From NCBI GenBank assembly GCA_016210585.1, contig JACQTX010000136.1, forward strand, positions 1-35,663: a stretch of DNA of 35,663 nucleotides, written 5' to 3'. This DNA comes from Chloroflexota bacterium (GTDB lineage Bacteria > Chloroflexota > Dehalococcoidia > Dehalococcoidales > JAFGLR01). Positions 2,600-33,704 of this stretch are shown here, one piece after another. Position 1 is the stretch's first letter. Each line of letters begins with the position of its first letter. The position numbers were made by a program, and so were the translations under genes. The notes under the pieces were generated by a model. That model saw only the letters and a program-made list of their open reading frames with translations, was not told where the DNA came from and ran no database searches.

Positions 2600-2633
2600 G
2601 TGAGTCGTGAATGTAACAAGTAAGGAGCTTCAG

Positions 2634-3782: not shown

Positions 3783-3798
3783 TTCTGAGAGGGCGTAA

Positions 3799-5148: not shown

Positions 5149-5185
5149 CTGTCGAACGCGGCAGAGCGGAGGAAGATACGCTATC

Positions 5186-6388: not shown

Positions 6389-6437
6389 TGTGCCATTCTC
6401 ATATTCGAGGACAGAACAACAAGAAGAGGAGGGACTG

Positions 6438-7106: not shown

Positions 7107-7127
7107 GTCAGCGGCAGGAGGCTAGCT

Positions 7128-7559: not shown

Positions 7560-7588
7560 TTCGTGAATAAGTCGAATAGAATAGCCCA

Positions 7589-16033: not shown

Positions 16034-16479
16034 TGGGAGTAGAGCGATTGGACCATATCCATATCTATGTGAAAGACCTGCCGGGTGCGATGAAGCTGTT
16101 TTCGGCCATACTGGGCACCAAGTTCAGCAAGGTAATTAACAATCCGGAGCCGCTCGCCTTTGACGGCACTTTAGACCCACTGGGCGTAGAGCTTATTGCA
16201 GCGACTTCGCCTACAAGTCATATAGCGAAGTCAATAGAAAAGCGCGGTGAGGGGCTGTCCGCCATCTCGCTGAAAGTCACCGACATTGAAGAGACCACCC
16301 GGAAGCTGGAAGGACTTGGACTGCGTGTGGTTGGCCGGCTAGAAAAGGGTGGCCTGAAAGAGGTGCATTTCCATCCCAAGGATGCCTATGGTGTCCAGAT
16401 AGAGCTTTGCCAGTATGATGATGTGCACGGGGCTATCGTTGTCGCTGAAAGCGGCGCCGACAGACTCACGACTGAGTGA
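16033..16479 (+). CDS. VOC-superfamily protein 2 (methylmalonyl-CoA epimerase / glyoxalase-like)
   Basis: This 148-residue paralogue of the protein at 7128-7559 shares LDHIHIYVKDL, SPTSH and VHFHPKDAYGVQIEL, and the same YDDVHGAI ending before a variable tail. The metal-binding His and Glu positions are kept. Likely roles are epimerisation or enolate chemistry on an acyl-CoA. The ATG overlaps the stop of the molybdopterin enzyme (TAATG) with GGAGG nine bases upstream, so the two are translationally coupled. Two copies in two operons of one regulon suggest either two similar steps or a heterodimer. Confidence 0.83.
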   Translation: MGVERLDHIHIYVKDLPGAMKLFSAILGTKFSKVINNPEPLAFDGTLDPLGVELIAATSPTSHIAKSIEKRGEGLSAISLKVTDIEETTRKLEGLGLRVVGRLEKGGLKEVHFHPKDAYGVQIELCQYDDVHGAIVVAESGADRLTTE

Positions 16480-16493
16480 TTCGGGGGGTTAGC

Positions 16494-17969
16494 ATGCGGA
16501 GTTCAAGCGAATACATCGAAAATCTAAGGAGGATGAGGCCCAATCTCTACATTGGCGGCGAAAAGGTTGGGCGGGATGACCCAAGAATAAAACCGGGTAT
16601 CAATGCTGTTTCGCTAAGTTTCGACCTGGCGCAAAAGCCAGAGTGGGATGGACTGCTTACAGCAATATCCTCTCTAACGGGCAAAAAAGTAAACCGCTTT
16701 ACCCATCTACCTCAGCATCCTTTCGACCTGATGCAAAAACAGAAAATGATACGTCTGCTCTGTCACAGGACTGGTGGTTGTATCCAGAGATGCATGGGAA
16801 TGGATGCTATTATCGGCCTATCCATAGTCACCAAAGAGATTGACGAAAAATACGCTACGAGTTACCATTCTCGCTTCATGGAATACCTAAAGTGGTATCA
16901 AGAAAATGACCTGGCCGGGACATGTGCCCAGACCGATATGAAAGGCGACCGAATGAAGCGGCCCGCCGAACAGGTTGACCCTGACGCCTATGTCCATGTG
17001 GTTGAAGTTAGAGATGACGGCATCGTGGTAAAGGGTGCCAAGCACTGTATTACCATGGCCGCCTATGCCGAGGAATTGCTCGTCATTCCCACTCGTGCCC
17101 TGACCGAAGCAGACAAAGACTACGCTGTTGCTTTCGCTCTTCCGGCGGACTGGGAAGGCGTTCATCTCATTACCCACCCGGTGTCAGTGCGGCCGCGGCG
17201 GAAACTGGAGTGCCCTTATGCCAGCTACGGCGTTTCCGACTCCATGATAGTTTTCGATAATGTTTTTGTTCCCAAAGAGCGCGTCTTCATGTGCCGGGAG
17301 TGGGAATTTGCGCGGAGGCTCGCTTTGCTCTTTGCCGATTCACATCGGCATAGCTACTCCGGCTGTAAGCCGGCCGTGTCCGATGTTCTTGGCGGTGCCG
17401 CGGCCCTCGTTGCTGAAGCCAATAACATTGCCAAGGTTTCTCACGTTAGAGAGAAGCTCTCCGAGTTTGCCAGCGCTGCCGAGCTAGCCTATGCCGCGGG
17501 AGTAGCTTCCGCCATCTACGGTGAGAAGACCTCCTCGGGCACTTTCTTTCCGAATACCATTTACGCTAATGTTGGGCGGCGGCTTACTGGTGAGAACATT
17601 TTCCATGAATTCAATCTGCTCGTCGAAGTAGCCGGCGGGATAGCGGTGACCCTGCCTTACGAGGATGATTTCAATGTTGAACCGACAAAGGCCTGGCTGG
17701 AAAAATACATCATAAGAAACCCGAGTTTGTCGGCGGAGGACTCGCACCGCATCTGGAGACTAGTAGAGAATCTGACGGCCTCATCCATGGCGTGCTGGTA
17801 TGAGATTGCGGGTGTGCATGGTGGCGGCTCACCGGTTATGGAAACCATTGCACTGAACCAGGAGTATGATTACGCAGCCCGTCAGAGAATAGCACGCTAC
17901 CTGGCTGGTATTGACAAGGAACTGGACCAGTCCGGGCAACTGAAGGAAGAACCAAACTCGCTTTTCTGA
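16494..17969 (+). CDS. 4-hydroxybutyryl-CoA dehydratase-like [4Fe-4S] flavoprotein (AbfD/HpaB family)
   Basis: This 491-residue protein matches the length of AbfD (about 490). The cluster ligands of 4-hydroxybutyryl-CoA dehydratase (Cys99, Cys103, His292, Cys299) have exact counterparts here: Cys96 and Cys100 (CIQRC) and His284 and Cys291 (HRHSYSGCK), including the Lys after the last Cys. The substrate loop GAKHCIT supplies the conserved Thr187. These residues are absent from the flavin monooxygenases of the same fold, so it should be a radical dehydratase or vinylacetyl-CoA-type isomerase, sensitive to oxygen. 4-Hydroxybutyryl-CoA itself need not be the substrate. ATG 16494 follows GGGGGG with five-base spacing; a GTG at 16476 overlapping the previous stop is less likely. 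A 3-hydroxyacyl-CoA dehydrogenase follows. Confidence 0.88.
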   Translation: MRSSSEYIENLRRMRPNLYIGGEKVGRDDPRIKPGINAVSLSFDLAQKPEWDGLLTAISSLTGKKVNRFTHLPQHPFDLMQKQKMIRLLCHRTGGCIQRCMGMDAIIGLSIVTKEIDEKYATSYHSRFMEYLKWYQENDLAGTCAQTDMKGDRMKRPAEQVDPDAYVHVVEVRDDGIVVKGAKHCITMAAYAEELLVIPTRALTEADKDYAVAFALPADWEGVHLITHPVSVRPRRKLECPYASYGVSDSMIVFDNVFVPKERVFMCREWEFARRLALLFADSHRHSYSGCKPAVSDVLGGAAALVAEANNIAKVSHVREKLSEFASAAELAYAAGVASAIYGEKTSSGTFFPNTIYANVGRRLTGENIFHEFNLLVEVAGGIAVTLPYEDDFNVEPTKAWLEKYIIRNPSLSAEDSHRIWRLVENLTASSMACWYEIAGVHGGGSPVMETIALNQEYDYAARQRIARYLAGIDKELDQSGQLKEEPNSLF

Positions 17970-17986
17970 ATTGTGGAGTCGAGAAT

Positions 17987-18838
17987 ATGGAAATCAAGAA
18001 AGTCGGGGTTGTCGGCTGCGGCCTTATGGGACAGGGCATTACCGAGGTAGCGGCCCGTTCTGGCTATGATGTTGTGGTCTGTGAGGTGAAACGGGAGCTT
18101 CTGGACAAAGGACTGGAAGCTGTCAAAGGCTCTCTCAGCCAGGCAGAAGCCAGAAATAAAATCACTCCAGAGGAAGCAAGAGCTACTTTAAGCAGAATTA
18201 GCGGCGCCACCTCGCCTGATGCTTTCGGAGAGTGCGACATAGTTGTGGAAGCAGTGGTGGAGAACCTGGGCGTCAAAAAGGATGTGTTCCAGTCTCTCGA
18301 TAAGTGCTGCCCGCCACATGCCATACTGGCCAGTAACACTTCAGCCATCTCCATCATAGACATGGCCAGGGTTACCCGGCGGCCGGACAAAGTCATCGGG
18401 CTGCACTTTATGAATCCGGTGCCGGTGATGAAGCTGTGCGAGATGGTCGTCAGTATCATAACCAGTCAGGAGACGGCGAGAGACGCGAGGCACTTTGTCG
18501 AGTCGCTAGGCAAAATGGTGGTGACGGCCAAGGACACGCCTGGATTCATCATCAACCGGCTGCTTGTCCCTTACATCTTCGATGCCATCCGCATGTTGGA
18601 GTCAGGCCTGGCCAGCAAAGAAGATATTGATAAGAGCATGCAGTTCGGCCTGAACCACCCGATGGGACCGCTCACCCTGGTGGACCTGACCGGCCTTGAT
18701 ACCGCCCGCAATATCGGCGAGGCGATGTATAGAGAGACCAGAGACGCAAGGTATTACCCACCAGTCCTGTTGCAGAAAATGGTCGCCGCCGGTTGGCTGG
18801 GACGGAAGACGGGCAAAGGCTTTTATGATTACCGCTAG
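17987..18838 (+). CDS. 3-hydroxyacyl-CoA dehydrogenase (3-hydroxybutyryl-CoA dehydrogenase type)
   Basis: This 283-residue single-domain enzyme is of the Hbd/PaaH type. The NAD loop VGVVGCGLMGQG (7-18) is followed by the catalytic blocks NTSAISI, GLHFMNPVPVM (catalytic His) and GLNHPMGPLTL (Asn). The C-terminal GRKTGKGFYDYR is typical. It oxidises an (S)-3-hydroxyacyl-CoA to the 3-oxoacyl-CoA that a thiolase can cleave, and a thiolase lies three genes downstream. No enoyl-CoA hydratase is present in the window to supply its substrate. GGAG precedes the ATG by about eight bases. Confidence in the family is high; chain length and branching of the substrate are unknown. Confidence 0.94.
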   Translation: MEIKKVGVVGCGLMGQGITEVAARSGYDVVVCEVKRELLDKGLEAVKGSLSQAEARNKITPEEARATLSRISGATSPDAFGECDIVVEAVVENLGVKKDVFQSLDKCCPPHAILASNTSAISIIDMARVTRRPDKVIGLHFMNPVPVMKLCEMVVSIITSQETARDARHFVESLGKMVVTAKDTPGFIINRLLVPYIFDAIRMLESGLASKEDIDKSMQFGLNHPMGPLTLVDLTGLDTARNIGEAMYRETRDARYYPPVLLQKMVAAGWLGRKTGKGFYDYR

Positions 18839-18863
18839 CTCAGCCTCGAGGGAGGTAACTTAG

Positions 18864-20102
18864 ATGGGCAGCAGCATAGCGCACAAGATACTCGTGAAAA
18901 AATCAGGCAATAAGCCAATAGATGAAGGCGATGTCATCTACGCGGAGCCTGACCTGGTATTGCTGTATGACTGGCCGGGCTTCGATGGTTTCATGCGCAA
19001 CATCAGGATAAACCCGGACAAGATAGTCCTGAATATTGACCACTTCTTTCTGCCCAACACTGAACTGGCCGCGAAGACCCACCGTAACTATCGGGAGACG
19101 GCTAAGAAATACGGCATCAAACACTTCTACGATATCGGCAATAACGGCATCGGTTTTCATCTGGCCGCTGAAAAGGGACATATCAAGCCGGGGATGCTGA
19201 TTGTCCATGCCGACCCGCACGTCAGCACCTTCGGTGCCTTTGGCGCCTACTGTGTCGGTGTGGGGGGCGACCTCATGTCCGCTTTCCTGATGGATGAAGT
19301 GTGGCTGCGAGTGCCCCAAGTCATCAAAGTAAACCTGAGCGGCAATTTTGCCGCTGGCGTTACCAGCCGGGACCTCTTCGAGCATATCCTGGCTGACCTT
19401 GGCCCTGACGGAGCGGTTGGTCAAGTGCTGGAGTTCACCGGCCCGGCACTGGCCGCAATGAGCATGGACAGTCGCATGGGCTTGTGTAGCTCCATGCAAT
19501 ACCTTTCCGCCGAAACGGCCATTATAAACCCTGATGAAACAACCTACCAGTATGTCAGGTCAAGGACGGAAGAGCCTTTTGAGGCTGTCCTGAGTGACCC
19601 GGACGCAGCCTATGCCAGGGTGCTCAACTACGATGTGTCCGGGCTTGAGCCAATGGTAGTTACCCCTCCCGACGTCTATTACGTTAAAAGGGTTGGGGAG
19701 GTGGCGGGCATTGACATAGACCAGGCGTTCATTGGCACCTGTGCCAACGGGCGGCTCGATGACCTCCGGCTGGCTGCCCGCATACTAAAGGGAAGGAAAG
19801 TTCACCCGCGGGTCAGGTTCCTGGTAACGCCGGTCACGCAGCAGACCATGCTCGATGCCGTAAAGGAGGGTATCATAGATACATTTCTGCAGGCGGGTGT
19901 GCTTGTGGGGCCGCCCACCTGCGGGCCATGCTATGGCGGTTTCGGCTATCTTCTGCCCGGCGAGACGTGTTTGTCCACCGGCACGCTGAACATTCCCGGA
20001 CGCATGGGTAGCACGGAGGCGAAGATATACATGGCCAACCCGGCTACGGTGGCCGCCTCGGCCATTGAAGGGAAGATCACCGACCCCAGAAAGTACTTCT
20101 AG
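18864..20102 (+). CDS. Aconitase-family dehydratase, large subunit (LeuC/DmdA-like), divergent
   Basis: This 412-residue protein has the aconitase-family catalytic domains. The three cluster cysteines are present: Cys293 (IGTCANGR) and Cys353/Cys356 (PTCGPCYGG). The active-site DSH block reads DPH (117-119). The NRNFxGR block that binds substrate carboxylates reads TLNIPGR, so the first Arg is replaced by Leu while the second (Arg380) stays. The family adds or removes water on di- or tricarboxylates such as isopropylmalate, citraconate or dimethylmalate. These changes suggest a different substrate. The small subunit is at 22744, separated by two genes, which is unusual. GGAGG lies about ten bases before the ATG. 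Confidence 0.85.
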   Translation: MGSSIAHKILVKKSGNKPIDEGDVIYAEPDLVLLYDWPGFDGFMRNIRINPDKIVLNIDHFFLPNTELAAKTHRNYRETAKKYGIKHFYDIGNNGIGFHLAAEKGHIKPGMLIVHADPHVSTFGAFGAYCVGVGGDLMSAFLMDEVWLRVPQVIKVNLSGNFAAGVTSRDLFEHILADLGPDGAVGQVLEFTGPALAAMSMDSRMGLCSSMQYLSAETAIINPDETTYQYVRSRTEEPFEAVLSDPDAAYARVLNYDVSGLEPMVVTPPDVYYVKRVGEVAGIDIDQAFIGTCANGRLDDLRLAARILKGRKVHPRVRFLVTPVTQQTMLDAVKEGIIDTFLQAGVLVGPPTCGPCYGGFGYLLPGETCLSTGTLNIPGRMGSTEAKIYMANPATVAASAIEGKITDPRKYF

Positions 20103-20103
20103 C

Positions 20104-21528
20104 ATGGCAGGCATATTGTCTTACGGCGCCTATGTCCCGGTCTGGCGGATAAGCCGGGATGAAATTGCCCGCAATTCCGGCGGCGGGTCCATGGCCGGTG
20201 AGAGAGCGGTGGCTTCACGGGACGAAGATAGCTTGACCATGGCGGTAGAGGCCGGCCTTGACTGCCTGGGTAGTTTAGACTCCCAGGAGATAGACGAGCT
20301 GTACTTTGCCACAACCTCTTCTCCCTTTGTTGAGAAACAGGGTGCCGCTATTATTGCCTCCGCCCTGGACTTGCGCCGGGACGTTACTACTTGCGACATG
20401 ACGGGCTCGTTGAGGGCCAGCGTTCTGGCGGTCAAAGCGGCTGCCGATGCCGTCCAAGCAGGCAGGGCCAGGAAAGTCCTGGTTCTTGCAGCTGACGCAA
20501 GGAAGGCCCGGCCACGCTCTGATTTGGAGCAAAGTTCCGGTGACGGCGCCGCTGCCCTGCTGATTGGTGCCGGAGACGGTATAGCCCGCTTGGAAGGCTT
20601 TGCCAGCGCAGTTAACGCCATACCAGGGCCATGGAAACGGACGGAGGACGATTACCCTAATGTCTTTGACGCCAGATTCGACACCAGATACGGTTTCCTG
20701 AATGATATGCCCCAGGCAATGGCCAGCGTAATGGCGAAATGCGAGGTGGGTGCTGACACAATATCACGGTTTGCCCTTTACGCACCCGACCCGAGAAGTC
20801 ATATGGCCCTGGCCAGGGCAATGAAACTTGACCTAAAGACTCAGCTACAGGACATCATGTTCAGCAGCGTCGGCGTAACCGGCACAGCTCACAGCCTGCT
20901 GCTCCTTGTGGCCGCGCTGGAGAGAGCCACGGCGGGGCAATGGTTGCTGTGCGCCGGCTACGGGGAAGGTAGTACGGCCTTGCTGTCCAGAGCCACAGGA
21001 AAAATCGAGCAAGAACAAGGAAAGCACCGTGGGACAAAGTATGCCTTATCAGGGCGGCTTTTGCCCTCCTACGGGCATTTTCTTGACTTCAAGAATGAAA
21101 TTGACACGGGCTGGCCGGAGTGGCAAAAGAGCTCTGTCGTGAGATACTGGCGCGACGAGAATTCGGCGTTACGTCTTCACGGGATGAAGTGCCGCGCCTG
21201 CGGCGGCTTGCAGTACCCGGTGAGCCGGGTCTGCGCATTGTGTGGCGCAAAGGATAGCTACGAGGATGTGAGGCTCACCAGAAAGGGAAAGGTCTTTTCC
21301 TACACCCACGATTACCTCTTAGGCCCGGGCAACGTGCCGCCGGATGGCATCAGTCCCACGACGCGCGTTGTCGTTGACCTAGAGGACGGTTGCCGGTTAT
21401 GGCTGGAGATGACCGACCCTGACACGAGCGAAATCGGGGTGGGAACGCCGGTCGAACTCACCTTCCGGCTAGTAAACGAGAAGAGTAATTACCGCTTCTA
21501 CGGCTGGAAAGCCCGGCCCGTGAGATAG
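20104..21528 (+). CDS. HMG-CoA-synthase-fold protein fused to a DUF35 zinc-ribbon/OB domain
   Basis: This 474-residue fusion has a thiolase-like HMG-CoA-synthase-type domain over residues 1 to about 330. Its nucleophile region is TTCDMTGSLRAS (Cys97). After residue 360 there is a DUF35 module: a zinc ribbon with Cys363, Cys366, Cys377 and Cys380, then an OB-fold. In archaeal mevalonate synthesis a separate DUF35 protein bridges thiolase and HMG-CoA synthase. Here it is fused, and the thiolase follows after 13 bases. The catalytic Glu of HMG-CoA synthases (ATESx) is Thr71 and the catalytic His is apparently Tyr226 (YAPDP), so true HMG-CoA synthesis is doubtful. The start is ATG 20104, one base after the preceding stop. 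Confidence 0.84.
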   Translation: MAGILSYGAYVPVWRISRDEIARNSGGGSMAGERAVASRDEDSLTMAVEAGLDCLGSLDSQEIDELYFATTSSPFVEKQGAAIIASALDLRRDVTTCDMTGSLRASVLAVKAAADAVQAGRARKVLVLAADARKARPRSDLEQSSGDGAAALLIGAGDGIARLEGFASAVNAIPGPWKRTEDDYPNVFDARFDTRYGFLNDMPQAMASVMAKCEVGADTISRFALYAPDPRSHMALARAMKLDLKTQLQDIMFSSVGVTGTAHSLLLLVAALERATAGQWLLCAGYGEGSTALLSRATGKIEQEQGKHRGTKYALSGRLLPSYGHFLDFKNEIDTGWPEWQKSSVVRYWRDENSALRLHGMKCRACGGLQYPVSRVCALCGAKDSYEDVRLTRKGKVFSYTHDYLLGPGNVPPDGISPTTRVVVDLEDGCRLWLEMTDPDTSEIGVGTPVELTFRLVNEKSNYRFYGWKARPVR

Positions 21529-21541
21529 CGGATGGTCTCGG

Positions 21542-22720
21542 ATGAGAATGAGAGAAGGCATAAGAGACAAAGTAGCCATTATCGGCACCGGCGTAACTAA
21601 GTTCGGCGAACACTGGGATAAATCAGCCGGTGATTTGATTGTTGACGCGGTGCACGCGGCCTGTGGCGAGGCCAATGTTGACCTGAAGAGAGATGTAGAG
21701 GCCATCTGGGCCAGCACTCTATATTACTGGTCAGGGATGTCTGGCTGGATTGCCGCTGACCCGCTGCGGTTCTACGGGAAGCCAGTGACCAGGGTGGAGA
21801 ACCAGTGCGCCTCAGGAATGGATGCCGTCAGGAATGCCGCTTATGCCGTTGCTGCCGGTGCCTACGACATAGTAGTCGCCTGCGGGGTAGAGAAACTGCT
21901 CGACCAGGGCGGCCGGGGGCTTTCCCAGGAAATAGTCCACACACACCCCGTGCTGGCCTGGCAGTCCGCCCCGGCCTATTTTGCCCCGTGTGCCGTCAGT
22001 GCCTTCAAGGAATGGGGCTGGTCAAGGGAAGACCTGGCCAGGGTTGCCGTTAAGAACCATCATAACGGGGCGAAACATCCAAAGGCTCATTTCCAGATGG
22101 AGATAACCGCCGAAATGGTGCTGAAAGCACCGATGGTCGCTTATCCGCTCGGTCTCTTTGATTGCTGCGGCTTGTCCGAAGGCGCTGCGGCTGTTGTTCT
22201 TACGAGGCCGGATATAGCCCGGAGTCTTGTTGGCGATAGTTACGCCTCGATCAAAGCCTTGGCCCTGGCGGTGGAGACGCAGTGGCCCTATTTCCGTCCA
22301 GACTGGACAGGGCTAGCACTGCCAGCGAATGTCAAGGCGGCGCAAATGGCCTACAGGGAAGCCGGTATTACAAATCCGCGGCGAGAGCTGGACTTCGCCG
22401 TTGTGCATGATTGTTTCACCATCACTGAGTTACTCATCTATCAGGATTTAGGACTGTGCCCACCCGGCGAGGCGACCGAGTTGGTCAAGAGTGGCGTCAC
22501 CGCCATTGATGGCGAGTTCCCGGTAAATCCTGATGGCGGACTGAAGTGCTTCGGGCACCCGGTTGGTGCCACCGGTGTCAGGATGGTTGCCGAGCTCACT
22601 AAACAGGTGCTGGGCAAAGCAGAGGGTTACCAGGTAAAGGATGCCAACATCGGGTTAGCCCACAACCTGGGTGGTCCACAAGCTATCGCTTCGGTGGCTA
22701 TTGTTGGTAAACCGGATTAG
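21542..22720 (+). CDS. Thiolase (SCP2-type acyl-CoA acetyltransferase)
   Basis: This 392-residue thiolase has Cys89 in NQCASGMDA as the acyl-accepting nucleophile. HDCFTITE and CFGHPVGATG carry the two conserved His residues, and NLGGPQAIASVAI ends the protein. The family cleaves 3-oxoacyl-CoA with CoA, or condenses acyl-CoAs. The SCP2-like branch commonly works with DUF35 partners, and the preceding gene encodes such a domain, so the two products probably form a complex. An alternative start two codons downstream (ATG 21548) is equally possible because the ribosome-binding site is weak. It lies between the two subunits of the aconitase-like enzyme. Confidence 0.92.
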   Translation: MRMREGIRDKVAIIGTGVTKFGEHWDKSAGDLIVDAVHAACGEANVDLKRDVEAIWASTLYYWSGMSGWIAADPLRFYGKPVTRVENQCASGMDAVRNAAYAVAAGAYDIVVACGVEKLLDQGGRGLSQEIVHTHPVLAWQSAPAYFAPCAVSAFKEWGWSREDLARVAVKNHHNGAKHPKAHFQMEITAEMVLKAPMVAYPLGLFDCCGLSEGAAAVVLTRPDIARSLVGDSYASIKALALAVETQWPYFRPDWTGLALPANVKAAQMAYREAGITNPRRELDFAVVHDCFTITELLIYQDLGLCPPGEATELVKSGVTAIDGEFPVNPDGGLKCFGHPVGATGVRMVAELTKQVLGKAEGYQVKDANIGLAHNLGGPQAIASVAIVGKPD

Positions 22721-22743
22721 CGAATCATCTCGGGGGAATGGAT

Positions 22744-23262
22744 ATGGAAGATATCATAAGGGGCAAAGTAGTATGGCAGTTCGGCGATAACTTTAATGCG
22801 GACCTGATAGTCGGTTCCCGATATATCGAAGAACGCGATCCCGAGGTGCTGGGGAAGGTGTGTTTGGCTGACCTTGATGCTGGGTTCTCGCAACGCGTCA
22901 AGCCGGGCGACATGGTAATCGCCGGACGCAACTTCGGCTACGGGCATCCCCACTACCAGGGGCTAATATCCCTGCAGAGAGCCGGGGTATCCGTATTGAT
23001 TGCCGAGTCCCTCTATCCGGTGTGGTACCGGATGGCAGTCTTCTATGCTTTCCCAGCCCTGGAATGTCCGGGTATCAGCCAGAAGGCAAAACCAAATGAC
23101 CAGTTGGAAGTAGCCGTCAGCACGGGTCTAGTCAAGAACTTGACCACGGGAGAAGTGCTACAGGCTGAACCGATGCCGCAGTTCCTGCTCGATATCGTAA
23201 AGGAGGGCGGCATGGTGGCACACCTTAAGAAGAAGCTGGCTGCTGCCCAGACACCAAAGTAA
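22744..23262 (+). CDS. Aconitase-family dehydratase, small (swivel) subunit (LeuD-like), divergent
   Basis: This 172-residue swivel domain is about the usual LeuD length. FGDNFNADLIV near the start and GRNFGYG (61-67) are family hallmarks. The next residues, which are SSRE in aconitase and LeuD, read HPHY (68-71). In aconitase this loop holds the Ser that acts as base and an Arg that binds substrate carboxylate, so both functions are replaced here. The RN of the later active-site block is RM. I chose ATG 22744 because GGGGG lies seven bases upstream; ATG 22738 would add two residues and lies too close. Its partner is at 18864-20102. Together they should form a hydro-lyase with unusual specificity. 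Confidence 0.8.
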   Translation: MEDIIRGKVVWQFGDNFNADLIVGSRYIEERDPEVLGKVCLADLDAGFSQRVKPGDMVIAGRNFGYGHPHYQGLISLQRAGVSVLIAESLYPVWYRMAVFYAFPALECPGISQKAKPNDQLEVAVSTGLVKNLTTGEVLQAEPMPQFLLDIVKEGGMVAHLKKKLAAAQTPK

Positions 23263-23292
23263 TCACGCTTCTCGGCAGTTGAAGGAATAGAT

Positions 23293-24576
23293 ATGCCACC
23301 AGAAGAAGTAAAGGAACAGGCTGCCTCTGAGACGCTCCTGGATAACTACCGCGTCCTGGACCTGACGGAAGGGTTCTGCCAGATTGCCGGCAAGCTGTTG
23401 GGAGACCTGGGTGCTGATGTGATAAAGGTTGAGCCGCCCGGTGGTAGCCCTTCCCGGGATATTGGCCCCTTCTATAAAGATATACCCCATCGGGAAAGAA
23501 GTCTGTCCTGGTTTGCCTACAACGTAAATAAGCGGAGTATGACACTTAACCTGGAGACGGCCACAGGTAAAAAGTTATTTTGTCGGCTGGCTGAGAGGGC
23601 AGATGTTGTCCTGGAGTCATTTCCACCGGGTTACGTGCCGGGACTAGGGTTAGGCTATGAGAAACTCAGCCAGATTAACCGCGGTCTGATAATGGTTTCC
23701 ATTACTCCCTTCGGGCAGGATGGCGCCAAAGCACACTACAAAGGCAGCGACCTGACTAGCTGGGCTAGCGGCGGCGCGCTATATGTAGCCGGAGTTCCGG
23801 AGTGTCCTCCCGTCTGGGTCAGTTTTCCGCAAGCATCACTACACGCCGGCATTGATGCAGTTACCGGCGCTCTTATTGCTCTAAACGAGCGCTCATTTAG
23901 CGGCGAAGGCCAATACATAGATGTCTCCACGCAGGAAGCCGTTATTGCCGTTGACCAATTTGTGCCGCAGATGTGGGACATGGCCAGATATATTCCTAAA
24001 CGGACAGGCGCCGCCTATTCATTTCCACCGGGGACTATCATGCGCATGGGTCTTCCTTGTAAGGACGGCCATGTCGCCGCCATCCTGTTTGGCGGCGGTG
24101 GCCTGGCCTTCTCACAAGGAATGCAGAGGCTGGCGAATTGGATTGATGAAGAGGGGATGGCACCCGAATGGTTCCGCAACTTCGACTGGGTCAATGACTA
24201 TTCACTCGGTGGCGCATCACAAGAAACGGTCAACCGCGTGGAGAGAGTCATCGGTGATTTTCTGAAGACCAAGACGAAGGCAGAGTTGTTCGCTGAGGCT
24301 CTGAAAAGGGATATCCTGATTGCTCCGGTCAACGACCCGAAGGACGTGCTGGAATACGAACACCTTCAGGTCCGGGACTACTGGACAAAAATCCTTCACC
24401 CGGAGCTTGATGATACGTTGACGTATTGCGGGCCTTTCGTGAAAAGCAGCGTCGCTCCAGTAACCATTCGGCGACGTCCGCCATTGGTCGGAGAGCACAA
24501 CCGAGAGATTTACGAGGGTGAACTCGGGTTGACCACTGGAGAGCTTATTTCGCTTAAGGCCGCCGGCGTTATCTGA
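23293..24576 (+). CDS. Class III CoA-transferase (CaiB family) subunit lacking the catalytic aspartate
   Basis: This 427-residue CaiB-family protein has the fold motifs VLDLTEGFCQIAGKLLGDLGADVIKVEP and NVNKRSMTLNLET. In the block aligned with formyl-CoA transferase Asp169, the sequence is VSFPQASLHAGID, with Ser182 where the catalytic Asp should be. It is therefore probably inactive alone. The next gene encodes a second CaiB-family protein that has the Asp, so the two likely form a heterodimer like succinyl-CoA:benzylsuccinate CoA-transferase (BbsEF). GAAGGA six bases before the ATG is a good ribosome-binding site. The intergenic gap to the partner is 16 bases. Confidence 0.82.
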   Translation: MPPEEVKEQAASETLLDNYRVLDLTEGFCQIAGKLLGDLGADVIKVEPPGGSPSRDIGPFYKDIPHRERSLSWFAYNVNKRSMTLNLETATGKKLFCRLAERADVVLESFPPGYVPGLGLGYEKLSQINRGLIMVSITPFGQDGAKAHYKGSDLTSWASGGALYVAGVPECPPVWVSFPQASLHAGIDAVTGALIALNERSFSGEGQYIDVSTQEAVIAVDQFVPQMWDMARYIPKRTGAAYSFPPGTIMRMGLPCKDGHVAAILFGGGGLAFSQGMQRLANWIDEEGMAPEWFRNFDWVNDYSLGGASQETVNRVERVIGDFLKTKTKAELFAEALKRDILIAPVNDPKDVLEYEHLQVRDYWTKILHPELDDTLTYCGPFVKSSVAPVTIRRRPPLVGEHNREIYEGELGLTTGELISLKAAGVI

Positions 24577-24592
24577 GAGGTAGAAGCAAGAG

Positions 24593-25855: not shown

Positions 25856-26713
25856 ATGGACCTCAGCATACTGCCACAGACGCTATTAAATGGTGTTATT
25901 CTAGCCGGAATTTATGTCTTGGTCGCCATGGGCATAACCCTCGTATTCGCCATAATGCAAATACCCAACTTTGTCCACGGCGAATTTCTCATGATAGGAG
26001 CCGTTGCGACCTATTTCCTCGTTACTTTCGGATTAAGCTATCCCTTTGCCATTCTGGTGGCAATGGTGTTCGTAGCTTTACTGGGGGTGATGGTTGAGCG
26101 AATTTTCTTCAAACCGTTCCGCGGCGACCATTTGCCGGTGATAATTATCTGCCTCGGTCTGATTGCCATAATTCAGAGTAGTGCATTTATGGTCTTTGGT
26201 ACTGAAGTGCGTATGGTCCCCGTGTATTTCCAGGGCGTAGTGAGCCTGGGTAACGTAGCCACGTCAGTGGAGAGGCTGGTAATAGTCATAGCTGCGGTAA
26301 TACTTATCACAGTTCTGTACTATTTTGTACGCTACATGAAAATCGGCCGGGCCATGCGAGCTGTCCAGCAAAATCCGGAAGGGGCGGCTCTGCAAGGCAT
26401 AAACATAAACGCGGTATCGAGCACAGCAATGGCGATTGGTTCCGGGCTAGCTGGTGCTGCCGGCGCATTGCTGGCACCGGTGTTCTTTGTAACACCGACG
26501 ATGGGCTCTGACTATCTCCTTAAGGGCTTCATCGTAGTGATTATTGGCGGGATGGGCAGCATTTCCGGTGTCATCCTTGGCGGGATAGCTCTGGGCTTAA
26601 TAGATGCCATAGCGGTAGCTTACCTGGGCAGCTCTCTGGGCAACATCATCGGATTTGTCCTTCTCATAGTGATAATAATGGTCAAACCTAAAGGAATACT
26701 CGGTCGTGACTAA
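25856..26713 (+). CDS. livH: ABC transporter permease LivH-like
   Basis: This 285-residue membrane protein is of the branched-chain amino acid type permease family. TLLNGVILAGIYVLVAMGITLVFAIMQIPNFVHGEFLMIGA at the start and the GMGSISGVILGG motif are characteristic. About eight membrane segments are visible. It forms the channel with LivM. Related importers carry amino acids, aromatic acids, amides or urea, so the ligand is open. The start is ATG 25856 and it overlaps livM by eight bases. The transporter genes form the 3' end of the long operon, and the binding protein is encoded separately on the other strand. Confidence 0.93.
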   Translation: MDLSILPQTLLNGVILAGIYVLVAMGITLVFAIMQIPNFVHGEFLMIGAVATYFLVTFGLSYPFAILVAMVFVALLGVMVERIFFKPFRGDHLPVIIICLGLIAIIQSSAFMVFGTEVRMVPVYFQGVVSLGNVATSVERLVIVIAAVILITVLYYFVRYMKIGRAMRAVQQNPEGAALQGININAVSSTAMAIGSGLAGAAGALLAPVFFVTPTMGSDYLLKGFIVVIIGGMGSISGVILGGIALGLIDAIAVAYLGSSLGNIIGFVLLIVIIMVKPKGILGRD

Positions 26714-27701
26714 AGGGACTACCAGGAATTTGTCAGCCGTGATAGCAGGGGGCATCTTCCTGCTAGCTCTTCCTCTGTTTCTGAAGAGTCCGTACTTTTT
26801 ACACATGCTGATTATGACCATGCTCGCCATAATTTACGCCGTTACGCTGCGTCCCCTAGTGATAACCGGACAGCTCAGTCTGGCACACGCCGCCTTCGTT
26901 GGTATTGGCGCGTATGCCTCAGCTCTCCTGGTGACGCGCCTGGGCATCTCCTTCTGGCTGGCACTACCCATGAGCGGTCTCATTGCCGCGCTTATTGCCG
27001 TGATTATTGGCTTTCCTGCCTTGCGGGCAAAAGGGCTCTTCTTCGCTATCGTTACCTTTGGCTTCACCGAGGTCGCCCGTTACACTTACATGGGCGTGAC
27101 CAGCCTGTTTGGTGGGCCGGCTGGCTTCAGGGGTATTACTCCGCCGGTGCTTGCGGGAATCCAGTTTGGGGGCAACAAGGTGGCTTACTATTATCTAATG
27201 GCCTTCCTCCTCACAATTACTCTTTTGGCCTGGTACAGCTTGGAGAAGTCGCGCTTCATGCTCACGGTGAGAGCTATCGGCAAGGCAGAGAACCTGGCCG
27301 AGGCGGTCGGTGTTAACCTGACCAAATATAAGATGGTAACATTTGTTTTCGCGGCTTTCTTCACTGGCATTGCCGGTAGCTTTTATGCCCACTATAATCT
27401 ATATATTGCTCCGATAAATTTCTCGGTCTGGCAATCTATAGCCTTCCTGACGTTAGTGGTGGTGGGCGGCAAGGAAAGGTTTATTGGGCCAATAGTAGGT
27501 GCTATTTTTCTCACCTTCATACCCGAGTTTCTGCACGGGACGGGGTATTTCCAGGCCATGCTGTACGGTGGCCTGATGGTGTTGACAGTCCTGTTTATGC
27601 CCAACGGCCTTATTGGCATACCGGGACAGATTGCGGCATTGACGTCAAGGCTAAGAAAAGTGAGGAAAGCGGGATGGCCTTTCTCGAAACCAGCAAGCTA
27701 A
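26706..27701 (+). CDS. livM: ABC transporter permease LivM-like
   Basis: This 331-residue permease has the LivM hallmark GQLSLAHAAFVGIGAYASALL near residue 57 and several more membrane helices. The start is a GTG (26706) inside the end of livH, eight bases of overlap. The C-terminus is basic (SRLRKVRKAGW) and overlaps livG by 28 bases. It pairs with LivH in the membrane. It follows the usual livHMGF order, with no insertion. Confidence 0.92.
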   Translation: MTKGTTRNLSAVIAGGIFLLALPLFLKSPYFLHMLIMTMLAIIYAVTLRPLVITGQLSLAHAAFVGIGAYASALLVTRLGISFWLALPMSGLIAALIAVIIGFPALRAKGLFFAIVTFGFTEVARYTYMGVTSLFGGPAGFRGITPPVLAGIQFGGNKVAYYYLMAFLLTITLLAWYSLEKSRFMLTVRAIGKAENLAEAVGVNLTKYKMVTFVFAAFFTGIAGSFYAHYNLYIAPINFSVWQSIAFLTLVVVGGKERFIGPIVGAIFLTFIPEFLHGTGYFQAMLYGGLMVLTVLFMPNGLIGIPGQIAALTSRLRKVRKAGWPFSKPAS

Positions 27702-28456
27702 CCAAGCGCTTTGCCGGACTACTGGCGGTAAACCATCTGGACCTGACAGTCAATGATGGCGAGGTCCTAGGCCTGATTGGCCCGAACGGCGCCGGCAAAA
27801 CCACGGTCTTCAATTTGATAGCGGGTACCATCCCGGCTACAGGTGGCAAGGTTATCTTCAGAGGCGAGGATATTTCGCGCTTGCCGCCATATCAGGTCGC
27901 TAGGCGAGGCATAATTCGCACCTTTCAGCTCAACACTGTCTTTCCGGACCTCTCCGTCACCGAGAACGTTGTCCTGGGCAGTCATTTGCAAGCGCGGACG
28001 GGTTTCTGGGGCGAACTCTTCAAAATGCCCGCGACGCGTCGCAGCGACCGCGAGATTGCTGGGAGGGCAGAGCAGCTAGTGGCTTCGGTCGGACTGCTGC
28101 GTCAGGATATGGACAAGCGACAAGCCCTCGCTAGCAATCTGTCTTACGGGCAGGTAAAGGCCCTGACGCTGGCAATAGCCTTGGCCGCCGACCCCAAGCT
28201 CCTGCTGCTGGATGAGCCGATGACCGGCGTCGGCGTTCGCGACGTTCCCAGACTGCTGAACCTAATCAGGGAGATTAATGGCCGCGGCATTGCTATTTTG
28301 CTGATTGAGCATAATATGAAGGCAGCCTTCGAGGTCTGCCACCGCATTGTGGTCATGAACCACGGCGATAAGATTGCGGAAGGCACACCCGCTGAAGTCA
28401 AAGACAACCCAGATGTAATCGAAGCCTACCTGACTAAGGATGGCCATGGGGCATAG
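27674..28456 (+). CDS. livG: ABC transporter ATPase LivG-like
   Basis: This 260-residue ATPase has Walker A at 36-44 (GPNGAGKTT), the LivG-type signature LSYGQ at 156-160, Walker B LLLLDEP near 176-182 and the switch His in LIEHNM. It powers import with LivF. The start at ATG 27674 has GAGGAAA upstream and lies inside the end of livM. The stop is followed after one base by the preferred livF start. Confidence 0.94.
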   Translation: MAFLETSKLTKRFAGLLAVNHLDLTVNDGEVLGLIGPNGAGKTTVFNLIAGTIPATGGKVIFRGEDISRLPPYQVARRGIIRTFQLNTVFPDLSVTENVVLGSHLQARTGFWGELFKMPATRRSDREIAGRAEQLVASVGLLRQDMDKRQALASNLSYGQVKALTLAIALAADPKLLLLDEPMTGVGVRDVPRLLNLIREINGRGIAILLIEHNMKAAFEVCHRIVVMNHGDKIAEGTPAEVKDNPDVIEAYLTKDGHGA

Positions 28457-28457
28457 C

Positions 28458-29165
28458 ATGTCTATCTGTCTTAAGAATGTATCTATCCACTATGGTGTCG
28501 TCGAGGCGGTAGCTGACGTCTGTCTCGAGGAAGAGCACCGGCAAATAATCAGTCTCCTCGGTGGTAATGGCTGCGGCAAAACATCGGTCATGAAGGCCAT
28601 TTCCGGGTTGATAAGGCCGTCCTCCGGCGAGATATGGTTTGATGGCAAACGGATAGACCGGCTATCTACCGGGGAAATTATCCGCCTCGGCATAGTACAG
28701 GTGCCACAGGGACGGCAGCTTTTTCCAGACATGACAGTCCATGAGAACTTAATCATGGGCGCCTATACTCGCAAGAGTAAGAAGGAGATACAGGCGGACA
28801 TGGAGATGGTCATTGCCCATTTTCCGGTATTGATGAAGAAGCGCAAACAAAAGGCGGGGACACTCAGCGGCGGACAGCAGGAGGCTCTCGCTTTCGGCCG
28901 GGCGCTCATGGCCAAACCCAGGCTACTGCTGATGGACGAACCGTCGCAGGGTCTGGCACCGGCTGTCGTCCAGGAAGTTAATCAGATTATCAAGGAGGTT
29001 AACCAGAAAGGCATCGGTGTTATTCTAGTCGAGCATAACCTGAGGCTGGCGCTCGACCTGGCAGATAAGGTCTACGTTCTGGAGGCAGGCCGCAAGATTT
29101 TTCAAGGCACGCCCAAAGACCTGTCACAGGATGACTACGTGAGGAAAATCTACCTCGGCACGTGA
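28458..29165 (+). CDS. livF: ABC transporter ATPase LivF-like
   Basis: This 235-residue ATPase has Walker A GGNGCGKTS (35-43), signature LSGGQQ, Walker B LLLMDEP and switch LVEHNL. The length and the beginning (MSICLKNVSIHYG) match LivF proteins when ATG 28458 is used, which has GGGG six bases upstream. In-frame ATGs at 28440 and 28446 overlap livG and would add a few residues. It is the last gene of the operon. A hairpin terminator begins 28 bases after its stop. Confidence 0.93.
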   Translation: MSICLKNVSIHYGVVEAVADVCLEEEHRQIISLLGGNGCGKTSVMKAISGLIRPSSGEIWFDGKRIDRLSTGEIIRLGIVQVPQGRQLFPDMTVHENLIMGAYTRKSKKEIQADMEMVIAHFPVLMKKRKQKAGTLSGGQQEALAFGRALMAKPRLLLMDEPSQGLAPAVVQEVNQIIKEVNQKGIGVILVEHNLRLALDLADKVYVLEAGRKIFQGTPKDLSQDDYVRKIYLGT

Positions 29166-29266: not shown

Positions 29267-30604
29267 CTAGAAGTCTTCTGGCGGCGGGATGAAGAAGGCA
29301 TGCTTGTTGACGCCGCCTTTGACAATGGCCACGGGCAGCGGGCCCTGCGATACGTGGTTCACACCGTAAGTCTTCTTGCCAACATGCTTTAGCGGCCCGT
29401 AGGGACCTTCAAATACCATGCCATCTTCCAACACCTTAGCAACATCCTTCGGTTCGATGCTCTGCGCTTTTTCCATGGCCGTCTGGAGCATTATGGGCAT
29501 GGGCGCGCTCATAATGCCAATCTGGTTCCACTCACCGTATTTGGTTACATTCTGGTTATAGAACCATTTCTGATAATCGGTTACCGGTTCAGCCAGGGTA
29601 AACCAGTTGTAAGCCCCCTCCACCGCAGCAGCACCGGCGGCCTGTACTAGCTTGGCACTGTCAGCGGAAAACAGAACGAAGGTGCCTTTATAGCCGAGCT
29701 CTCTCGCCTGCTTTATTATTTGAGTCTGGTGCGAAAGCTGGGTATAGCTGAGGTCGATGACGTCGGGTTTCTTGGCGATAAGACGTGTCAATACTGGATA
29801 GAAGTCAGAAGTCTCGATGTTAAAGAATTCCTGGGCCAGCAGAGTTATGCCAGCAGCTTCTGCACCGGCTTTGACACCCCTGCCGCCAATATAACCGGTG
29901 TCGGTGTCAGGCATCAGAGAAGCGACACTCTTGACGTTGGGATTGACCTTCACGAGCTCTTTGTACAAGTAGGTCAATATCTTCTCAGGAGGTATGCGGT
30001 TCCACATGAAAGTAAGCGGATATTTAGGGTTCATGTAATCCCAGATATCGCCGAACACTAGGTAGAACACATCCCCCGCCTGTTGGACGACCGGGGCAAC
30101 CGCAAGGCCGAGGACGCTGGCGTTCTGAATAAAGTATTTGACCTTGTCCTGGTAAATCAGCTTGTTAGCTACTTTCACTGACAGGTCGGTATTATAAGCA
30201 TTGTCCTCAACAACGAGCTGCCATTTGTAGTTCTGGTCACCAATCCAGAAGCCACCTCGTTCGTTAAGTTCATCTACCTGGAGCTGCAGGCCACGATTAA
30301 CCGGAATACCAGACACAGCTGCCGCCCCGGTGAGATAGACTGAGTGTCCTACTTTGATGAACTTGGTAGGCTTCGGAGTCGCCGTGATTGTCACAGGGGC
30401 GGGCGGTGATGCTGTCACCGTAGTTGTTGCTGTTGTAGTGACCGTGGGCGCAGGAGCGGGTGAAGCCGTAACGGTAGTTGTGGCTGTTGCCGTGACTGTG
30501 GGTGCGGGTGTTGCTGTCGGTTTGGGTGTGGCGCAGGCGCCGACCAACATGGTAACCAGAACCAGCATGGCACAGGAAATAAGCAGTAATCTCTTTCTGC
30601 TCAT
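29267..30604 (-). CDS. ABC transporter substrate-binding lipoprotein (LivJ/LivK type)
   Basis: This 445-residue periplasmic-binding-protein-type lipoprotein has a signal segment ending in LVGAC (lipobox, Cys24). It is followed by about 55 residues of repetitive Thr/Ala/Pro/Val linker, then a branched-chain-amino-acid-receptor domain starting IKVGHSVYLTGAAAVSG and continuing with LQLQVDELNERGGF. It is the expected ligand receptor for LivHMGF, although it is convergent with that operon and has its own promoter and operator. The start is ATG 30604 with GGAGG just upstream; a longer frame from 30667 would run across the operator and lacks support. The ligand is unknown. Confidence 0.92.
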   Translation of the reverse strand: MSRKRLLLISCAMLVLVTMLVGACATPKPTATPAPTVTATATTTVTASPAPAPTVTTTATTTVTASPPAPVTITATPKPTKFIKVGHSVYLTGAAAVSGIPVNRGLQLQVDELNERGGFWIGDQNYKWQLVVEDNAYNTDLSVKVANKLIYQDKVKYFIQNASVLGLAVAPVVQQAGDVFYLVFGDIWDYMNPKYPLTFMWNRIPPEKILTYLYKELVKVNPNVKSVASLMPDTDTGYIGGRGVKAGAEAAGITLLAQEFFNIETSDFYPVLTRLIAKKPDVIDLSYTQLSHQTQIIKQARELGYKGTFVLFSADSAKLVQAAGAAAVEGAYNWFTLAEPVTDYQKWFYNQNVTKYGEWNQIGIMSAPMPIMLQTAMEKAQSIEPKDVAKVLEDGMVFEGPYGPLKHVGKKTYGVNHVSQGPLPVAIVKGGVNKHAFFIPPPEDF

Positions 30605-30625
30605 TCGTCCTCCTTCTACTGCATG

Positions 30626-30650
30626 ATTTTGAATACTGAGTATCCAAATG
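30626..30650. promoter_or_regulatory. Operator site 4 (upstream of the binding-protein gene)
   Basis: The core GAATACT-G-AGTATCC is centred on 30638, with perfect ATACT/AGTAT half-sites and AT-rich flanks. It aligns with the site 1 palindrome and lies seven bases downstream of the predicted -10, over the transcription start. Confidence 0.8.
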
Positions 30651-30657
30651 ATGCGCC

Positions 30658-30686
30658 ATAATAACATCTACAGATGTTCTTGTCAA
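30658..30686 (-). promoter_or_regulatory. Predicted promoter of the binding-protein gene
   Basis: On the minus strand, TTGACA (30686-30681), a 17-base spacer ending in TGT (extended -10), then TATTAT (30663-30658, five of six). This is the best -10 of the set. The spacer contains a 16-bp inverted repeat, AACATCT-AC-AGATGTT (30663-30678), which might bind a second regulator. Confidence 0.72.
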
Positions 30687-31748: not shown

Positions 31749-32806
31749 TCAGTCCCTTCAGTGAAGACGCCGCGCAGCGCATCTGCCGGGTCGGGTGCCG
31801 GACTAGCGGTAGCGAATTCAAAGGCTGCGGTTACCTGCCTCTCTACTTCAGCCTTGACCTTCTCCAATTCCGCTGGCGTAAATACCTTTTCCATTAGTAA
31901 ATAGTCTTCAAACCGGGGGATTGGGTCACTGCGTTTGCACGCCTCAAGCTCATCTTTAGGTCGATACGCCTGGGGGTCACCGACGAAATGTCCCAGCCAG
32001 CGGTGCGTGCAGCATTCCAGCAGTGTAGGACCCTCCCCTCTCCTGGCCCGGGCGACAGCCCTTCCCGCGGCGCGATGGACAGCGATAACGTCATCGCCAT
32101 CAATTGTTTCTCCTGGCATACCATAGGACGCGGCGCGGACGGAAACGTCACCGATTTTCATAGCTTTACGTTGGGGCACCGAGACTCCATAACCATTGTT
32201 TTCACAGACATAGAGGATGGGCAAGTCCCACACTGCTGCCAGGTTAAGACTCTCGTGGAAGGCCCCTTGATTGGTAGCACTTTCGCCCAAAAAAGCCACT
32301 ACCACTTGTCCTGTTTTGCGATATCGTGAGGCGAAAGCAACGCCAGTGGCCAGTGAAAGGCCACCGGCAACTACACCGCTCGAACCGATGACACCTTTTG
32401 ACCAGTCGGCCATGTGCATCTCACCGCCTCTGCCGCCACAGATGCCGTCTCGTTTCCCCATAACTTCCGCCATCAGCGGGCCTGGTGCCATTCCCTTTGC
32501 CAGGAAATGGCCGCGGCAGCGGTGGGTGGACGCCACGAAATCATCCTCATTCAAGTGGGCACAGACACCGACAGCTATGGCTTCCTGACCCAGATAGGAG
32601 TGGAGCCAGCCGGGTAGCTTTCCTGACAGGAACATCTCCACTGTCCGCTCTTCCATCCGGCGCAGCAGGACCAGCATGCGGAACATCCAATCCAAGGTCT
32701 CAGTCGCCACATCGGATTGTAAGTCCTCTGAACTTTGCGGCTCTGTCTTGGCCATCAAATCCTTACCTGTCATCGTCCTGGTTACCGCCGCATCTTGGCG
32801 CGTCAC
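31745..32806 (-). CDS. 2-Oxoacid (pyruvate/acetoin-type) dehydrogenase E1, alpha subunit
   Basis: This 353-residue E1 alpha shows STHRCRGHFLAKG, GGRGGEMHM and the thiamine-diphosphate motif. The motif normally starts with GDG, whose Asp binds Mg2+; here it reads GES (174-176) in FLGESATNQGAFHESLN, while the distal NN (203-204) is intact. The base sequence GGC GAA AGT was checked. The Glu may still bind the metal. Two starts are possible: GTG 32806, which overlaps the upstream lyase gene as GTGA, or ATG 32755, which has AAGGA four bases upstream and would remove 17 residues. The N-terminal extension before TLDWMFRMLVLLRRMEE is not conserved in type. Confidence 0.9.
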   Translation of the reverse strand: MTRQDAAVTRTMTGKDLMAKTEPQSSEDLQSDVATETLDWMFRMLVLLRRMEERTVEMFLSGKLPGWLHSYLGQEAIAVGVCAHLNEDDFVASTHRCRGHFLAKGMAPGPLMAEVMGKRDGICGGRGGEMHMADWSKGVIGSSGVVAGGLSLATGVAFASRYRKTGQVVVAFLGESATNQGAFHESLNLAAVWDLPILYVCENNGYGVSVPQRKAMKIGDVSVRAASYGMPGETIDGDDVIAVHRAAGRAVARARRGEGPTLLECCTHRWLGHFVGDPQAYRPKDELEACKRSDPIPRFEDYLLMEKVFTPAELEKVKAEVERQVTAAFEFATASPAPDPADALRGVFTEGTE

Positions 32807-33684
32807 GACTTGGACTGGGGCTGTTCCGCATAGTATTTCTCCTCATAATCAATAACTTCGCGCAGGTTCATGAACTTGAAAAAGCCCCGGTAGTCCGGAG
32901 CACCGAGGCGTCCGAGGGTTTCCTTGACGGTTCCCTTCTCTTTGATTTCCTGCATCACATCGGCAACTGCCTTCTGAGCCGCAAACAATGCCTCCACCGC
33001 GTATGTCACCAGCCCTCTTGCCCCCGTTTGCCGAAGTTCGTTGACGGTAACATCAGTATGACAACCGAGAAGCAACCATAATGGTGCCCGTATGCCTCTT
33101 ACGAGCGCCCCAAACTCCTCCCGCTTGGCAGTTAACGGCATCACGAGGTCAGCACCGGCTTTTGCATAAGCATTACAACGGTCAATCTGCTCCTGCAAGG
33201 AGACAATGTCAGAATCGGTCCTGGCAGCAATGATGAAATCCGGGTCTTCCCGCGCTTCTAGGGCGGCCCTTATCTTGATGACCATTTCATCTCTGGGGAC
33301 TATCTTCTTGTATTTGCCAAGGGCACCACACCTGACCGGATGTTGCTGGTCTTCCAGGAAGATACCGGCGATGCCCGCCCTCTCCATCTCCCTCACCGTG
33401 CGCTGTATGTTAGTCAAGCTACCGTAGCCATCCTCGGCGTCAGCGAGTACGGGTATGTTTACCAGATTGGCAATGTTTCGGGTTTGGTTTACCACCTCGC
33501 TCATGGTCAGCAGACCAACATCGGGCTTGCCTAGGAGGCTAGCCGAAAGACCAAACCCACCGACAAAAACTGCCTTAAAACCTGCCTGCTCAATCACCCG
33601 GGCACTGACTCCATCGTATGCCCCCGGTGCTTCGACGATTTGGTCTTCGGACAAGTACTTCCTCAATAGAGCGGTTTTCTTCAT
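32803..33684 (-). CDS. PEP mutase / isocitrate lyase-family carbon-carbon lyase
   Basis: This 293-residue TIM-barrel protein of the family contains 2-methylisocitrate lyase, 2,3-dimethylmalate lyase, oxaloacetate decarboxylases and PEP mutase. APGAYDGVSARVIEQAGFKAVFVGG and LADAEDGYG (metal site, 80-88) are characteristic. The mobile catalytic loop, PKRCGH in methylisocitrate lyases, reads PVRCGA (116-121): Cys119 is kept, and the preceding Lys and the His are lost. It probably cleaves a substituted malate to a 2-oxoacid plus an acid, or carries out a related reaction. The start is ATG 33684, five bases after GGAGG; an upstream ATG at 33696 lies on that site. An aconitase-like pair in the same regulon could make its substrate. 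Confidence 0.86.
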   Translation of the reverse strand: MKKTALLRKYLSEDQIVEAPGAYDGVSARVIEQAGFKAVFVGGFGLSASLLGKPDVGLLTMSEVVNQTRNIANLVNIPVLADAEDGYGSLTNIQRTVREMERAGIAGIFLEDQQHPVRCGALGKYKKIVPRDEMVIKIRAALEAREDPDFIIAARTDSDIVSLQEQIDRCNAYAKAGADLVMPLTAKREEFGALVRGIRAPLWLLLGCHTDVTVNELRQTGARGLVTYAVEALFAAQKAVADVMQEIKEKGTVKETLGRLGAPDYRGFFKFMNLREVIDYEEKYYAEQPQSKS

Positions 33685-33704
33685 TTCACCCTCCATAAAT
33701 TACT

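Follow-up and report, generated by a model that had tools for sequence, protein, structure and literature searches.

Nicotinate fermentation employs the 2,3-dimethylmalate dehydratase DmdAB together with a dimethylmalate lyase, and in aconitase itself individual Arg residues contact the carboxylates of the substrate. The general base of aconitase is Ser642, and outside aconitase X (AcnX) the superfamily shares more than 15 of 20 active-site residues, the Ser base included (PMC8184944). Here we describe a LeuC-like and a LeuD-like gene that encode an aconitase-family pair in which this serine has been replaced; both lie in a 35,663-nucleotide stretch of a Chloroflexota genome (contig JACQTX010000136.1), hereafter the window. 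We conclude, with a probability of about 0.5 for the reading as a whole, that the pair is a heterodimeric member of a distinct branch of the LeuCD/HacAB group and acts as a [4Fe-4S] hydro-lyase or isomerase in which a His loop takes the place of the Ser base, feeding a co-inherited lyase of the isocitrate lyase (ICL) superfamily. The substrate would be an alpha-hydroxy acid without the usual distal carboxylate.

Both reading frames are uninterrupted and on the same (+) strand, and between them lie a gene for a 3-hydroxy-3-methylglutaryl-coenzyme A (HMG-CoA)-synthase-like protein and a thiolase gene. The first-pass annotation had treated 18864-23262 as one pair; the two subunits are indeed there but are not adjacent, and the gene for the probable partner lyase is found outside this range. 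The large subunit reached the NCBIfam model PRK00402.1 (422.7 bits; cut-off, 385), which places it in the LeuC/HacA group, and fell far below the equivalog cut-offs of LEU2 (367.9 versus 610.65), HacA_Meth (332.8 versus 550), and, likewise, leuC. For the small subunit, only the broad subfamily model TIGR02087 (LeuD/DmdB family) was reached (125.9 bits; cut-off, 108.95), with scores below the equivalog cut-offs of leud (125.5 versus 245.85) and HacB2 (114.5 versus 230). A Pfam search with the small subunit gave no match, and NCBIfam and structure identify it nonetheless. Structure predictions were confident for both (predicted local distance difference test scores of 88 for the large and 92 for the small subunit). 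The large-subunit model matched homoaconitase 4kp2 (Z 54.0), Methanocaldococcus jannaschii isopropylmalate isomerase (4nqy and 4kp1; Z 51.7 and 51.5), and isocitrate-bound aconitase 7acn (Z 42.2), and the small-subunit model matched 3vba (Z 27.0; root mean square deviation, 1.5), 2pkp (Z 24.3), and aconitase (Z 18). The predicted models thus have the fold of the aconitase superfamily, with domains 1 to 3 in one chain and domain 4 in a separate subunit. Given such close matches the fold is ordinary; the active site, by contrast, is altered.

Subunit residues are given in aconitase numbering, and motif coordinates were confirmed by translation (Table 1). Pairwise alignments to 4nqy and 4kp2 (large subunit) and to 3vba and 2pkp (small subunit) were gap-free across every motif, so the residue equivalences are safe. 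As the first-pass annotation had noted, the cluster cysteines C293, C353, and C356 are all intact, and DPH, TLNIPGR, and GHPHY stand where it had placed them. Ser642, the general base in GSSRE, is missing, and the carboxylate residues R447, R644, S166, and S643 have become Leu, His, Pro, and Pro. Overlooked at that stage was the H147 position, which is Phe (F98; GIGFHL for G-I-x-H-Q) in the window large subunit and in its closest orthologue. Retained are D100 and H101 (D59, H60), D165 and H167 (D117, H119), E262 (E190), and R452 (R380). This combination of residues was absent from the LeuCD and HacAB reference structures.

The same substitutions recur elsewhere. An orthologous pair in a genome of the same class and another family (G449) is 67% (large) and 58% (small) identical and carries DAH, TLNVPGR, and GHPHQQ. 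Searching plasmids, we found the loop GYGHPHYPP in Variovorax, Azospirillum lipoferum, Polaromonas, Comamonas endophytica, and Rhodococcus opacus, with DGH, TLNVRGR, and SCASGR in the large subunits. A 24-base pattern encoding NFG[YF]GHPH matched 7 of 385 genomes from the class of the alphaproteobacterial Rhodospirillaceae genome G808, 3 of them twice, and the reversed-pattern control matched none; a 24-base motif search of five single genomes gave no match. At the GC-rich alphaproteobacterial loci, genes are open frames assigned by similarity and not curated. Among 100 order-level relatives, the best small-subunit match was 42% identical and its loop differed, which makes the module rare among close relatives of the host. 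A scan of genome contigs returned relatives at ∼42% identity or below and nothing closer, and no second copy was found in 30 genomes of the G449 family.

A phylogeny of 56 large subunits (17 serine-less and 39 comparison sequences), built with the motif columns removed, contained a branch (support, 99/95; 98% of bootstrap trees) that divides every one of the 17 serine-less large subunits from LeuC, HacA, and all GSSR-type sequences. The window large subunit therefore falls in a separate serine-less clade when set against LeuC and homoaconitase, a check that the first-pass annotation had proposed. Because this support was obtained after removal of the motif columns, an artefact of the shared motif is ruled out. 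None of the 39 comparison sequences has the residue combination, and every small subunit paired with them retains GSSR. The clade spans several phyla, and across nearly all of it the equivalents of D165, E262, and R452 and the three cysteines are conserved. Looser relatives carry GKTHE, GNPHI, GHDHD, or GHDND, so the serine was lost clade-wide while its replacement differs. In the small-subunit tree, a single change of state, on a weakly supported branch, suffices for the loss of Ser.

Two loci with unusual relatives were also seen. In a same-order relative (L078; G024:C124, 1967-3849), GKTHE occurs with STANYAGR and with DAV for DSH; the His of DSH is gone and the cluster cysteines are retained. 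A second locus (L115; G171:C4, 168-6522) holds a LeuCD-like set that lacks the serine (GHDHDH) and another with GSSR. It also encodes two lyases of the ICL type, with KRCGF and KKSGS, and a further small subunit whose loop carries a long insert.

The window lyase, probably the next enzyme, is 59% identical to the lyase directly beside the pair in G449, where the gene order is lyase, LeuC, LeuD. A lyase gene adjoins the pair in most genomes, and the GHPHY examples include Variovorax, Azospirillum, Comamonas, Rhodococcus, and alphaproteobacterial genomes. An ICL-superfamily partner, such as DmdAB has, is thus found beside the pair in the orthologue and relatives, with an altered motif. The triad is usually accompanied by a Liv-type ATP-binding cassette (ABC) importer (Variovorax, Azospirillum, Comamonas, and others); other loci have a tripartite ATP-independent periplasmic (TRAP) importer (L110), an oligopeptide-type ABC ATPase (L106), or a major facilitator superfamily protein (L084). 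Next to the window lyase, genes for the E1 alpha and beta subunits of a pyruvate/acetoin-dehydrogenase-type enzyme (30771-32806, −) could serve to use up a 2-oxo acid product.

Lyase residues, in the numbering of the PrpB literature, were aligned with PrpB, petal death protein, and carboxyphosphoenolpyruvate (CPEP) phosphonomutase (1mum, 1zlp, and 4iqd). KRCGH is the canonical PrpB motif (PMC11982470), and D108, C191, and R228 are the core cleavage residues of Mycobacterium tuberculosis ICL (PMC7609661). All 14 GHPHY-linked lyases retain D58, D85, E115, C123, and R158, which make up the Mg2+/2-oxoacid half and the catalytic acid (C123), and all 14 lack H125, E188, and N210; D87 is kept among them except in the window and G449, which have Glu. 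Three of five GSSR-linked lyases (L080, L087, and L088) retain H125, an acid at 188, and N210, and the other two carry KRCGY (L075) and KKSGS (L115). Given these two exceptions, the correlation between loop type and lyase motif is strong and not perfect. The GHPHY-linked lyases are compatible with one origin (93/85 in the tree).

Table 1. Positions in the window of the serine-less pair, its altered motifs, the lyase, and the transport genes
Feature	Position	Strand	Details
Large LeuC-like [4Fe-4S]-binding subunit	18864..20102	+	412 aa; Pfam Aconitase PF00330, 1e-70
DPH replacing DSH (aconitase D165-S166-H167; S166>P118)	19212..19220	+	
Cluster ligand C293 (aconitase C358)	19740..19742	+	In GTCANGR; canonical SCTNGR
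Cluster ligands C353, C356 (aconitase C421, C424)	19920..19931	+	
TLNIPGR replacing NRNFxGR	19983..20003	+	N446>T374, R447>L375; R452 retained
Small LeuD-like subunit	22738..23262	+	174 aa; NCBIfam TIGR02087, structure match
GHPHY replacing GSSRE	22942..22956	+	S642>H70, S643>P71, R644>H72
LivH-LivM-LivG-LivF type ABC importer	25856..29165	+	Same operon as the pair
LivK-type solute-binding protein	29267..30667	−	Divergent, beside lyase cluster
ICL/phosphoenolpyruvate-mutase-superfamily lyase, probable next enzyme	32803..33696	−	VRCGA (33322-33336) for KRCGH

The residue substitutions, the serine-less clade, the gene linkage of the pair with lyase and importer, and the parallel changes in the lyase were observed directly; from them we infer the catalysis, the role of His as base, the substrate class, and the products as follows. 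An acid would enter the cell by the importer, and the cluster would bind its hydroxyl and remove or add it as in aconitase, with the equivalents of H101, D165, and H167 in place. H70, in the position of Ser642, may take or give back the proton in a pocket that lacks the carboxylate holders R447, R644, S643, and S166. The alpha-hydroxy acid product would then pass to the lyase, whose Mg2+/2-oxoacid site and catalytic Cys are retained and whose second-carboxylate residues are lost. Retro-aldol cleavage would yield a 2-oxo acid, such as pyruvate or glyoxylate, and a second product whose carbanion would be stabilized by something other than a free carboxylate; the CoA enzymes of the window may process the latter.

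The main argument for a substrate without the usual second carboxylate is that two consecutive enzymes have lost their contacts to that group yet retain the cluster and 2-oxoacid sites. The first-pass annotation had suggested a dehydratase for an unusual substrate, either with fewer carboxylates or activated as a thioester. Its former option probably holds, as the changes are conserved in the clade and the lyase pocket residues are lost; the latter finds no support in the conserved gene neighborhoods discussed below. Several observations weigh on the other side. The window lyase is 9.5 kb from the pair on the opposite strand, and no lyase was present in the examined DNA of three clade members (L112, L114, and L004). 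H125, E188, and N210 are residues that we take, from ICL and PrpB structures, to hold the second carboxylate (the succinate half). The first loop position is Asn in L004 and Lys in L078, so a His base is not general in the clade, and monophyly of the serine-less small subunits is weak (Shimodaira-Hasegawa approximate likelihood ratio test, 43).

Among the alternatives, an ordinary dicarboxylate substrate, such as a substituted malate or maleate resembling dimethylmalate, with the GHPHY His and other residues replacing Arg and Ser as carboxylate ligands, is the likeliest but still unlikely. The nearest families use substituted malates, the layout of hydratase plus ICL-superfamily lyase is that of dimethylmalate hydratase plus dimethylmalate lyase, and the pair still has R452 and the lyase its 2-oxoacid half. 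The neutral Pro and Leu at S166, S643, and R447, with the parallel loss of H125, E188, and N210 from the lyase, argue against it. The same genome bears on this in both directions: contig C251 (L075; G000:C251, 8371-12156) encodes a canonical GSSR-type pair with a PrpB-like lyase (KRCGY) and the tricarballylate dehydrogenase TcuA, which shows a canonical version of the layout and already looks fit for tricarboxylates.

The C251 set is a plausible module for tricarballylate/aconitate breakdown. Two further pairs occur in this genome. On contig C144, leuD exceeds its equivalog cut-off (250.9 versus 245.85) and lies with leuB and a citramalate synthase gene, and the C99 pair adjoins isocitrate dehydrogenase. 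A leucine biosynthesis role for the window pair was rejected on the basis of this leuD-leuB-cimA cluster and of its own position outside a leucine operon, and a role as aconitase in the tricarboxylic acid (TCA) cycle appears to be covered by the C99 pair. Leucine synthesis, a TCA-like role, and tricarballylate breakdown thus appear to be served by three other pairs, leaving the window pair as a fourth with a separate function.

Dehydration of a CoA thioester within the CoA-linked pathway of the window is rather improbable. The operon at 16033-25846, with gaps of ≤30 bp, is dense in CoA enzymes (CoA-transferases, 3-hydroxyacyl-CoA dehydrogenase, HMG-CoA-synthase-like protein, and thiolase), two of which are flanked by the subunits. 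The neighborhoods of the pair in G449, Variovorax, Azospirillum, Comamonas, and Rhodococcus do not share these enzymes, and the recurrent companions there are the lyase and the importer; a thioester substrate is therefore less likely, even though the window itself is CoA rich. To our knowledge, no aconitase-family enzyme uses a thioester, and the ICL-superfamily lyases that we know of use free acids.

Several further CoA-related genes were noted. The HMG-CoA-synthase-like protein (20104-21528, +) carries a C-terminal ChsH2-type zinc ribbon/OB domain in one chain; its listed start, a TTG at 20065, would make it overlap the LeuC-like gene, and the ATG at 20104 is likelier. It is followed, between the subunits, by a lipid-transfer-type thiolase (21542-22720, +). 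Upstream, a flavoprotein resembling HpaB/4-hydroxybutyryl-CoA dehydratase (16476-17969, +) neighbors a methylmalonyl-CoA-epimerase-like protein and a 3-hydroxybutyryl-CoA dehydrogenase. A second catabolic module (2607-10322, +) encodes a pair like 2-hydroxyacyl-CoA dehydratase/benzoyl-CoA reductase, a CoA-transferase, a nitroreductase, an epimerase-like protein, and dehydrogenases; genes for a TRAP importer and an enzyme of the dimethyl sulfoxide reductase family come next. At loci L081, L085, and L087 (haloarchaeal and Peribacillus plasmids), GSSR-type LeuCD occurs with a CaiB-type CoA-transferase and HMG-CoA lyase.

Loss of dehydratase catalysis, with the pair acting instead as a decoy, in redox or regulatory roles, or in some other Fe-S chemistry, is improbable. 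The Ser base is gone, and in AcnX the S70A change at the corresponding residue removes nearly all activity (PMC8184944), but the near clade-wide conservation of catalytic residues and cluster cysteines and the frequent operon linkage to lyase and importer argue for a working enzyme. Random decay of a redundant leuCD copy, conceivable in a genome with three further pairs, is refuted by intact frames and by substitutions that are shared with the 67%-identical orthologue and the multiphylum clade beyond chance.

If the preferred reading of the pair as a [4Fe-4S] enzyme with a His loop is true, a clade that keeps the cluster and lacks the Ser base would mean that the serine is replaceable and that the family has a new substrate class. 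We found no description of the serine-less branch in the literature searched; this branch of the aconitase/isopropylmalate dehydratase family is widespread among bacteria and unstudied. Records for Azospirillum, Variovorax, and other plasmids label these genes “3-isopropylmalate dehydratase,” which is probably wrong. At slightly less than even odds, His in place of the catalytic Ser and a remade lyase together mark an undescribed pathway that takes up and cleaves an alpha-hydroxy acid in which the second acid group is either missing or masked. The gene linkage opens this pathway to testing in cultured strains.

Compared with M. jannaschii LeuCD, an isopropylmalate/citramalate isomerase, the window pair shares the fold, the two-subunit layout, the three cluster Cys, and ∼40% identity and differs at the equivalents of the Ser base, S643, R644, R447, N446, S166, and H147, with no leucine operon. 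M. jannaschii HacAB (4kp2 and 2pkp) likewise shares the fold and cluster site, but the window pair lacks the same residues and is far below the HacA and HacB equivalog cut-offs. AcnX (cis-3-hydroxyproline dehydratase and mevalonate 5-phosphate dehydratase) offers a precedent for remade substrate sites and unusual substrates; it retains Ser as the base, and its cluster sites are different, whereas the window pair does the reverse, keeping the cluster site and losing Ser. AcnX chains matched the large-subunit model at only Z 18.5 to 19.2 and 13 to 14% identity (homoaconitase, Z 54), so the pair is much nearer the LeuCD group. The window-type lyase shares the Mg2+ ligands D58, D85, and E115, as well as C123 and R158, with PrpB, petal death protein, and CPEP phosphonomutase; K121, H125, E188, and N210 are replaced, and D87 is Glu in the window. 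With DmdAB and dimethylmalate lyase, the locus shares its module logic, a LeuCD-like hydratase followed by an ICL-superfamily lyase, but the GHPHY-linked lyase has neither the histidine of KRCGH nor the E188/N210 pocket.

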